A stretch of DNA of 40,643 bases from Phycisphaerales bacterium. GTDB taxonomy: Bacteria; Planctomycetota; Phycisphaerae; Phycisphaerales; UBA1924. The position numbers and the translations under genes were made by a program. This document shows, piece by piece, positions 35,118 through 38,254 of this stretch. Position 1 is the stretch's first letter; every line of letters starts with the position of its first letter. The notes below the pieces were generated by a model. It was not told the origin of the DNA, did no database searches, and saw only the letters and a program-made list of their open reading frames with translations. The DNA lies in contig JAJDDE010000027.1 of NCBI GenBank assembly GCA_029260475.1, positions 1-40,643 of the forward strand. Reading direction: 5' to 3'.

Positions 35118-36836
35118 TCAGCCGGCGGTCGCGATGAGCTGCTGTAACAACTCGTCGGACGTGGTGATCACGCGGCTCGCCGCCGAGTAGCCCGTGCTCG
35201 TCAGGATCATGTTGATGAACTCCTGCGGCAGGTCCACGTTCGCGAGCTCCAAGGCACCGCCGATGATGCGCCCCGTGCCGAACTCCGTCGGGCCGGTGAC
35301 CAGCGCGGTGCCGGAGTTGGGGCCGACCGCGAAGAGGTTCTCACCGACATCGATAAGACCCTCGGGGTTGGTGAACTTGCCGACCGCGACGCGCCCGATG
35401 GTGCGCGTGAGCCCGTTCGTGAAGCCGCCGACGATCGTTCCGTCGATGCCGACCGCGTAGGTGGTGAGCGTGCCCAGCGGCGAGCCGTCCTGGAAGGTCG
35501 CTGCGAGCGAGCTCAGGCCCGAGGCGCCGAGCGGGCTGGAGAGGGCCGTCACGTTATCGCCGGTGGAGTTGAAGTTGAGCGCGAAGTTGATCGGGTCCAC
35601 AGCGCCGGTACCGTCGCGGTCCACCTGGATGCCCACGGGCGCATCGTCGGCCAGCTGCCCGAAGTTGTCGAAGTTGATCAGTGGCGCAGAGTCCGTGCCG
35701 CCGAGGTCGAGGTTGTACGCGACGTCTGAGTCGTCCGGCGAGCGGATATACAGGCGCCACCCGGTGCCCGTGTCGCCCTTCTGCTCGAGCACCGCGGTGA
35801 TGTCCACGTTCACCGGTGATCCCAGCGTGTCGTACACCACGAACGTGGAGCGTACGGATTCGCCGTCGGCCGACTGGGTACGGCTGGTGATGAGCGTTCC
35901 GTCCGTGACGGCGAGGCCCGTGGTCCCATCGGTGAAGCCGAGTTCACCCGTCTCGAACGTGAGATCGTTCTGAGAGCCCAGGTTGCCCCCGATGGAGATG
36001 ACGCCCGCCGCATCGATGGTCACGCCGCCGACACCGCCAGCCACCGCGCCGTCAACGATGCCCAGCGCGTCGCCGATGAAGGTCATGAGCTCGTCAACAT
36101 CGGTGGTCGCGGTGATCGTCAGTGTCGCGTCCGGGATGGTCTTGTTGCCGATCTCGGCGCCGGAGATCGTGAATTCGTCACCGATGGCGAGGACCGGTGA
36201 GTCGAGCGCGGTCAGCAGCGTCGCGCCGGTTGCGGGGACGGCGCCCGAAAGCAGCGCGGGCATGGTGTGGATCGAGCCCTGCGTCGCAAGATCGCCCGCG
36301 GCGTTGAGGTTGCCCGAGAAGTTCACGTTGGCCGTGGCCTCCGCGATCGTCGCGACACCCAGCGGGATGGTCAGCCCGTCGAGGTTGCCCTCGATGAGGT
36401 TGTACTGGTCGTCAACCGTGAACCCCTGCACTCGGGCGCCCGACGGTGTGACCAGCTCGTTGTTCGCGTTGAGTTGGAAGGCGCCGTCTCTCGTGAAGAA
36501 GCGGCTGCCCCCTCGGTCCACCACGAAGAAGCCGTCGCCCTCGATCGCGAGGTCGGTGGGGATGCCGGTGGGCGTGGTGGCTCCGCCGCTGAAATTGCGC
36601 TGCGTCGCCGAGACACGGACGCCCGAACCGATCTGGGCCGGGTTCGTGCCGCCGTTCGCGGCGTTGGGCGATGAGCCGAGGCTGAAGTTGCGCGACAGGT
36701 TCGGTGCGAAGAGGATCCGGTTGCTCTTGAACGCGACCGTGTTCACGTTCGCGATGTTGTTGCCGATCACCTCGAGGCGACGGTTGTTGGCGTTGAGGCC
36801 GGAGAGTCCGGTGAACAGTGTGCTGGGTGACGACAT
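35118..36836 (-). CDS. flgE: Flagellar hook protein FlgE
   Basis: The 572-residue product has the conserved N-terminal rod/hook motif (MSSPSTLFTGLSGLNANNRRLEVIGNNIANVNTVAFK), the D1 signature TDLAIEGDGFFVV, a long central beta region and the C-terminal helix pair (ALELANVDLPQEFINMILTSTGYSAASRVITTSDELLQQL). Hook proteins are usually about 400 residues; the extra length lies in the surface-exposed D2/D3 part, which is rich in Gly, Asp and Thr. It is exported by the type III gate encoded downstream and its length is set by FliK. Confidence 0.96.
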   Translation of the reverse strand: MSSPSTLFTGLSGLNANNRRLEVIGNNIANVNTVAFKSNRILFAPNLSRNFSLGSSPNAANGGTNPAQIGSGVRVSATQRNFSGGATTPTGIPTDLAIEGDGFFVVDRGGSRFFTRDGAFQLNANNELVTPSGARVQGFTVDDQYNLIEGNLDGLTIPLGVATIAEATANVNFSGNLNAAGDLATQGSIHTMPALLSGAVPATGATLLTALDSPVLAIGDEFTISGAEIGNKTIPDATLTITATTDVDELMTFIGDALGIVDGAVAGGVGGVTIDAAGVISIGGNLGSQNDLTFETGELGFTDGTTGLAVTDGTLITSRTQSADGESVRSTFVVYDTLGSPVNVDITAVLEQKGDTGTGWRLYIRSPDDSDVAYNLDLGGTDSAPLINFDNFGQLADDAPVGIQVDRDGTGAVDPINFALNFNSTGDNVTALSSPLGASGLSSLAATFQDGSPLGTLTTYAVGIDGTIVGGFTNGLTRTIGRVAVGKFTNPEGLIDVGENLFAVGPNSGTALVTGPTEFGTGRIIGGALELANVDLPQEFINMILTSTGYSAASRVITTSDELLQQLIATAG

Positions 36837-36889: not shown

Positions 36890-37459
36890 CTACGCGAGCG
36901 GCGTGCCAGCGCTGTTCAGATCGGTCAGCACACGCGCCAGCGAAGCATTCTCCAGCGGGCGGGCCCCGAGCAGGGGTGTGTTTCCCACCACCCGACGCGC
37001 ACGCCCCGCGTCCTCGCTCAGCATCTCGCGCAAGGCCTGCCCGTCCACGTCCGGCACGCGCACGAAGGCGTCCACGCCCGTGATCAGCCGCCCCGCGCTG
37101 TCGTTTTCTATCGATTCGACGAGCCGCCCGGCGACGTCGAGCGTCACGGAGCGCACCGGCACCGGGTCGCGCTCATCTTCGGGCACGCCCTCCACGAGCG
37201 CACCGACACGCGCGAAGCCAGCGGCCTGCGCCGCATCGGCGACTGCGCTGAGCAGTTCCATCGTCCGCGGGTCCACCGGACCCACGCCCTTGGCGATGTC
37301 CAGGCCCTGACCGCTGTGGATCTCGCCCCGACGAGCGAGCACGATGAGTTCGTCGAACCCGACACCCTCCAACGGAGTGCCCGTGGCGCGGGGCGTGCCC
37401 GCGCCCGGGCGAACGCCCGAGCCGAGCCGGCGCAGCATGGTGCGCGCCGACGACTCCAT
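36890..37459 (-). CDS. TIGR02530-like flagellar operon protein
   Basis: The 189-residue product sits between flgD and flgE, the place of the TIGR02530 family in Firmicutes and spirochaete clusters. The sequence fits loosely: a central helix LLSAVADAAQAAGFARVGALVEG, then VRSVTLDVAGRLVESIENDSAGRLITGVDAFVRVP, comparable to the family's K-x-NRTVITA...NIDGAVIV core. Both ends are longer than in the known family. Role is unknown in general, probably hook-assembly related. Its start overlaps the flgD stop by one base (TGATG). Confidence 0.65.
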   Translation of the reverse strand: MESSARTMLRRLGSGVRPGAGTPRATGTPLEGVGFDELIVLARRGEIHSGQGLDIAKGVGPVDPRTMELLSAVADAAQAAGFARVGALVEGVPEDERDPVPVRSVTLDVAGRLVESIENDSAGRLITGVDAFVRVPDVDGQALREMLSEDAGRARRVVGNTPLLGARPLENASLARVLTDLNSAGTPLA

Positions 37460-38232
37460 CAGGGCGTTTCCGGCTCTTCGACGAACTCCTGCACAAAGAT
37501 GCGGAACGTCGTCGAGACCTCGTTGCCGAAGGTGTCCGTCGCGGTGACGCGGAACGTGTGCGAGCCGATGTCCTCGGTGTCCGGGTTCAGCGTGAACGTG
37601 CGCGTCGCGGGGTCGAACTCCACCCAGTCGGGCAGGTCCGTGCCGTCGGCGTTCGCGGCGGTGTAGGTGAGCAGGTCGCTCGGGTCCGCGTCGGCGAAGG
37701 TGTCGGTGCGGAAGTCGAAGCTCAGCTCATCACCCGCGACGACGGTGACGTCCTCGATGTCGCGTTCCGCGGTCGGCGCCGCGTTCTCGGGCGGCTCGAG
37801 CAGCTGCGGGTCCACGATCTCGTCGAGGTTCTTCAGCGGAACGCTGAACCCTGTGCCGAGGTTGAGACGCAGACCGTCACGTGTGATCGATACGGAATCG
37901 ACGTACCCGACCACTTCCTGGCCGTTGTCCGTGCGCCCCGCGACGAACGTTCCGACGAGGGAGCCCGCAGAGGAAATTTCGCCGCGTGCTGCGATGTCCT
38001 TGAGGCTCTGTGAGAGTTCGAGGTCCGACTCGATCTGGCGGATCGTGCCGATCTGATCGAGCAGCGCCTGCGTGTCATTCGGCGACAGCGGGTCCTGGTT
38101 CTGCAGCTCCGACAGAATGATCGCGAGGAAGTCCTGCGAACTCACGCTGTCGAAGCCCGATGCCGATTCGCCCGACTGCACCGCTTCTGCCGCGGCGAAC
38201 GGGTCGGGAAGCTGTGATGGAAGTGCGCTCAT
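37459..38232 (-). CDS. flgD: Hook-cap scaffold FlgD with appended cadherin-like domain
   Basis: The 257-residue product has the normal FlgD N-terminal motif (residues 28-75: VSSQDFLAIILSELQNQDPL ... LLDQIGTI) and a small tudor-like beta part (about 88-140). From about 152 to 248 it carries a beta-sandwich of the dystroglycan/cadherin (CADG) kind with FADADPSDLLTYTAANADG, LPDWVEFDPATRTFTLNP and GSHTFRVTATDTFGNEVSTTFRI. FlgD caps the growing hook and is removed on completion. The extra domain is not part of the normal FlgD. It overlaps the next gene by one base. Confidence 0.9.
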   Translation of the reverse strand: MSALPSQLPDPFAAAEAVQSGESASGFDSVSSQDFLAIILSELQNQDPLSPNDTQALLDQIGTIRQIESDLELSQSLKDIAARGEISSAGSLVGTFVAGRTDNGQEVVGYVDSVSITRDGLRLNLGTGFSVPLKNLDEIVDPQLLEPPENAAPTAERDIEDVTVVAGDELSFDFRTDTFADADPSDLLTYTAANADGTDLPDWVEFDPATRTFTLNPDTEDIGSHTFRVTATDTFGNEVSTTFRIFVQEFVEEPETP

Positions 38233-38254
38233 GGTCCGACTCCTGTAAAGCTGC

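Follow-up and report, generated by a model that had tools for sequence, protein, structure and literature searches.

The sole FlgD of a Phycisphaerales bacterium consists of a FlgD core fused to a separate C-terminal CADG/He_PIG domain, a sandwich of the dystroglycan/cadherin-like type. The protein is encoded in a 40,643-nucleotide window (the whole stretch of DNA that was analysed), where an initial annotation made from the sequence had described it as such a fusion; Pfam, sequence matches and fold prediction all agree with that description, and the gene lies on the minus strand. The fusion is confirmed to be real and rare, and it is present in two genera. We propose that the protein is a working FlgD, that one CADG domain was added to its variable C-terminal end in the ancestor shared with a single sister genus, and that the domain provides the hook cap with an enlarged petal. 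We put the probability of this reading at about 0.5.

The flgD gene and its neighbours

The gene sits in a flagellar gene cluster, and the features of the region are collected in Table 1. The match of window FlgD to PF03963 scores 38 bits (cut-off 27), that of residues 106–135 to the tudor model PF13861 is sub-threshold (17.1 bits versus a cut-off of 26.9), and the NCBIfam FlgD models match below their cut-offs. The tudor-like part is clearer in the sister protein, L064, which aligns contiguously to positions 5–57 of the 58 in PF13861 (E 7e-5, 23.4 bits), also below the cut-off. The C-terminal domain scores 58.1 bits against PF05345 (cut-off 24) and covers model positions 2–94 of 96; Big_9 matches as well, just over its cut-off.

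Table 1. Coordinates of flgD, its domains and adjacent features in the window
Feature	Coordinates	Strand	Basis and remarks
flgE (hook protein, 572 aa; the cap's presumed client)	35118..36836	-	Pfam FlgE domains; length ordinary for the family
Next gene, 189 aa, between flgD and flgE	36890..37459	-	Start codon overlaps the flgD stop
flgD, 257 aa; FlgD core with a CADG/He_PIG domain at the C-terminus	37459..38232	-	ORF, Pfam
Acidic C-terminal end (EFVEEPETP)	37462..37494	-	Alignment; sister protein also acidic there (ESSGEEEETE)
CADG/He_PIG (dystroglycan/cadherin-like) domain, residues 153–246	37495..37776	-	PF05345, E 1.3e-15; fold
DADPSDLLTYTA signature, residues 181–192	37657..37692	-	Sequence, column conservation
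Linker, residues 142–152, up to the NAAP junction that is typical at the start of CADG domains	37777..37809	-	Alignments, column conservation
Short uninterrupted tudor-like part, about residues 83–141, without FnIII insert	37810..37986	-	Weak PF13861 match
FlgD N-terminal (stalk/hook-binding) domain, residues 20–78	37999..38175	-	PF03963, E 2e-9
AGGAG, likely ribosome-binding site	38240..38244	-	7 bases before ATG; inference from sequence

The flgD gene looks intact, judging from the AGGAG that precedes its ATG and the TGA stop that overlaps the ATG of the next gene (TGATG). An assembly chimera or a frameshift is unlikely because genome G437, of another genus, has the same architecture, with a downstream start likewise coupled to flgD by a 4-base overlap. 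Third-position G+C is 0.96 in the CADG part (37495–37776, minus strand) versus 0.79 in the FlgD core; the contrast is smaller in G437 (0.85 in the tail versus 0.82).

The export-gate recognition motif has the form FxxxPhi. In the window protein the sequence F35-LAI-I39 would fit this form and lies as far from the N-terminus as expected; the Salmonella motif (GRM) occupies residues 36–40 (PMC8983047).

The 189-aa gene that follows flgD has no Pfam or NCBIfam match, and a syntenic homologue follows the flgD of L064. Its homologues in relatives are syntenic and fast-evolving (about 50–61 bits), and the gene may correspond, in divergent form, to the small flagellar operon protein encoded at that place in other bacteria. 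The second gene downstream of flgD is flgE, as identified by Pfam. Nearby genes, which we take from reading their sequences to be motA, motB and fliL-like homologues, are conserved in relatives.

Fold of the C-terminal domain

Structures were predicted by AlphaFold2 without an alignment, both for the full-length protein and for the tail alone. The tail was modelled as a seven-stranded beta-sandwich. Its pLDDT values were mostly 77–89 within the full-length prediction and averaged 74 when the tail was folded by itself; outside the CADG domain the full-length prediction is of low quality (mean pLDDT 54). In both runs the best PDB fold matches of the predicted model were the cadherin-like domains of dystroglycan (Z 10.6–12.4, about 93–105 residues aligned, rmsd 1.8–4.1); SraP scored lower (Z about 9), and Ig domains formed a background at Z of about 8. 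When the tail alone was compared with the sequences of solved structures, the top match was alpha-dystroglycan (E 3e-7), ahead of the cadherin-like domains of SraP.

The appended sandwich and its signature DADPSDLLTYTA were thus as the initial annotation had described them, and the recommended search for CADG/He_PIG domains returned PF05345. The fold of residues 150–250 was predicted to differ from that of the ordinary FlgD C-terminal part: family and fold searches both argue against the FnIII fold of other FlgD proteins, and the tudor fold does not fit either. The FnIII model FlgD_ig (PF13860) gave no match to window FlgD up to E 1, none in the window genome, and none on any FlgD in 61 family genomes. 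FlgD FnIII chains are missing from the top fold matches, an absence which alone would not exclude an FnIII fold. Since the dystroglycan matches rank above the Ig background and FlgD_ig does not match, the sequence searches and the predicted model identify the tail as a CADG domain, distinct from the FnIII part of ordinary FlgD.

Distribution among relatives

FlgD is present in 112 of the 120 family genomes sampled. In 110 complete family proteins the core extends to about residue 141, and the tail beyond it has a median length of 14 residues (range 0–118). Long tails are mostly of low complexity, and the two longest are the CADG tails of the window genome and G437. A search of 163 family genomes with an alignment of the domain found the fusion in these two alone. 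No further case was found in 397 genomes of the class, where the nearest domains lie in frames of 900–7500 residues, or in 392 genomes of the phylum, for which the full-length pair served as query; the family, class and phylum samples overlap, and together they cover one phylum. The proposed survey of relatives therefore recovered the same fusion once, in G437, and nowhere else in the three samples. A scan of genome contigs with window FlgD gave a single CADG-bearing match, to one gammaproteobacterial protein. An apparent match into the CADG domain in genome G797 fell in an 852-residue frame; the actual FlgD frame of that genome is ordinary, at 139 residues. No description of such a FlgD fusion was found in the part of the literature that was covered.

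Other additions to FlgD were seen. Family tails differ sharply between relatives, with TG-repeats, poly-aspartate and PT-rich stretches (L065, L059, L133, L075 and others). In the class and phylum samples FlgD often carries additional tudor-like repeats in place of such tails: one or more follow the FlgD core in L253–L257, L265, L266, L090, L096, L100 and L102, in frames of up to about 470 aa spread over several families of the phylum. In genome G082, of another family of the class, a single frame (L092:298–981) encodes FlgD followed by a type I dockerin (PF00404, E 2.4e-12).

Origin of the fusion

Window FlgD and the FlgD of G437 share 44% identity overall and the same architecture. A tree of 24 genomes was built from concatenated FlgE, MotA, MotB, FlgD core and FliL sequences. 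Both carriers fall inside a fully supported clade of 11, where they are sisters with support of 80/97, just under the mark for a secure branch; the flagellar genes of the two genera are about 60% identical. Because the carriers are sisters in this tree, the most likely history is one gain in their common ancestor, kept across the split of the genera.

The domains themselves are less informative. The two FlgD CADG domains are 39–42% identical to each other, no closer than either is to free CADG repeats (up to 45–49%); the domain tree is unresolved, with long branches, and they rarely group in its bootstrap replicates. These observations would be explained by independent gains in the two carriers from tandem-array proteins, a history that is compatible with any functional reading of the domain. 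We nevertheless consider independent gains unlikely, as one origin is compatible with the domain tree in an AU test (p 0.51) and the two proteins have in common, besides their sister position, the place of the junction, the acidic end and the residues G167, E169 and T241. The FlgD core tree alone leaves the carriers in an unresolved polytomy. In the window genome, the search for He_PIG domains turned up that of FlgD alone, and neither carrier genome yielded another; spread from another He_PIG protein within the same genome was considered, and no such protein was found.

Conserved residues and the question of calcium

The core of the CADG domain is kept in both carriers (F179, D181, L188, Y190, W203, F206, D207, R211, F213, P217, G223, D233 and F243), which suggests that selection has held the fold. 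The acidic positions characteristic of CADG tandem arrays have fared differently: both carriers have lost those at 166–167 and 241, and G437 has lost D183 as well, whereas D181, D186 (D/E) and D233 are kept. A role of these positions in calcium binding is assumed from analogy, and they may never have been present in many He_PIG domains. We read the domain as one whose fold has been kept, probably without a conserved calcium-array function. Calcium binding and sugar binding, two of the functions suggested in the initial annotation, are so far unsupported.

These residues bear on the possibility that the domain acts as an adhesin at the tip, where it would sit on the outside of the cap, bind calcium as well as polysaccharide or another cell, and aid attachment during or after hook growth. 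Bacterial cadherin-like domains have been described in Ca2+-dependent contacts and carbohydrate binding (Fraiberg 2010, 2011 and RapA2, as cited in PMC12153261). The nearest relatives of the domain occur in giant multi-repeat proteins, the window copy retains D181, D183 and D186, and the dockerin of G082 shows another type of extracellular binding module joined to a FlgD of the class. However, the loss of the acidic positions listed above weighs against adhesion, and a single domain in place of an array would provide no inter-domain calcium site. Salmonella FlgD is present in few copies at a transient cap, and no cohesin was found in genome G082 to pair with its dockerin. An adhesin is therefore quite improbable. 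Because the array-typical acidic positions are lost, a structural role in the cap is favoured over calcium-dependent adhesion, and enlargement of the cap is the most likely function of the two.

A proposed model for an enlarged cap petal

In Salmonella, five FlgD subunits form the cap; their N-terminal stalk is essential, and the C-terminal tudor and FnIII parts form a petal that aids efficient assembly (PMC8595650). The C-terminal domain of FlgD is reported to keep FlgE from being lost into the medium (PMC5069557), and for C. jejuni it was proposed that additional FlgD sequence touches additional domains of FlgE (PMC8595650). We propose a model for window FlgD whereby its N-terminal signals would direct the unfolded protein out through the flagellar channel, and its N-terminal helices would form the stalk of the cap. 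The tudor-like part together with the CADG domain would constitute an enlarged, outward petal, in which the CADG sandwich stands in for the FnIII insert of Salmonella FlgD that is absent in this family. This petal may protect or retain FlgE subunits as they arrive and broaden the contacts of the cap during hook growth, and the CADG domain would leave together with the cap. Contact with the neighbouring hook protein is the most plausible of the functions raised in the initial annotation. Another of these, that the domain stays with an enlarged hook, found no backing: FlgE measures 568–589 aa in all 24 genomes compared, and an enlarged hook is thus not specific to carriers.

A special FlgE in the carriers was also looked for and not found. 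Across the 24 genomes, FlgE of the carriers is of ordinary length and shows no matching change other than five residues unique to the two and an insert of 3 residues; without a special insert, no matched partner domain is seen in the hook. A further point against a role in the cap is that most relatives have a short tail and no added domain, so that the domain is dispensable in the family. The FlgD C-terminal end may simply tolerate any exportable tail, the lineage having happened upon a CADG module that travels as a neutral passenger. Since family tails are so variable (0–118 residues in length, rich in PT, D or TG, and folded in the two CADG cases alone), this stays a serious rival, and the N-terminal 86 residues of Salmonella FlgD are partly sufficient (PMC8595650). 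A neutral tail should, however, decay or turn over as those of the neighbours do, and two genera whose flagellar genes are about 60% identical have kept an intact fold and its core residues; we regard the neutral passenger as somewhat unlikely.

It is conceivable, though the chances are against it, that hook caps in this clade, whose family lacks the FnIII domain on FlgD, came to have an Ig-like petal again, at a topologically new place, when an unrelated cadherin-like domain was appended and retained; a surface for holding FlgE would then have evolved twice from different sandwich folds. How the FlgD petal helps to hold and fold the hook protein is an open question (PMC8595650). The relatives, with their bare cores, disordered tails, extra tudor-like repeats, dockerin and CADG domains, constitute a natural experiment: it is evident from the range of tails that this end of the cap can change freely, and these natural swaps offer a way to find which surface matters.

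Comparison with known systems

The N-terminal part of window FlgD (residues 22–99) aligns weakly, at E 0.009, to Salmonella FlgD in the hook cap (PDB 7bhq, 7eha, 7nvg). The two share a presumed hook-cap role and an Ig-like sandwich in the C-terminal half. In Salmonella, however, the FnIII domain belongs to a tudor/FnIII hybrid, whereas the tudor-like part of window FlgD is uninterrupted and the CADG domain lies at the end. The short FlgD proteins of the family (for example L033, L061 and L139, 140–144 aa) have the same core, presumed role and match to the same FlgD model, but end just past the tudor-like part, without a folded tail.

For the tail, the cadherin-like domains of alpha-dystroglycan (9c3c, 5llk, 8uf4) are the best match in both sequence and fold; the protein is a eukaryotic adhesion receptor, and the fold of the domain is all that it has in common with window FlgD. 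The tandem CADG/He_PIG repeats of giant bacterial surface proteins (for example L184, L188 and L207) belong to the same domain family, with 40–49% identity, but form arrays in frames of 900–7500 aa and carry the acidic positions that the FlgD domain has lost. The FlgD-dockerin protein of G082 likewise has an extracellular module added at the FlgD C-terminus, with a type I dockerin in the place of CADG and in another family of the class.
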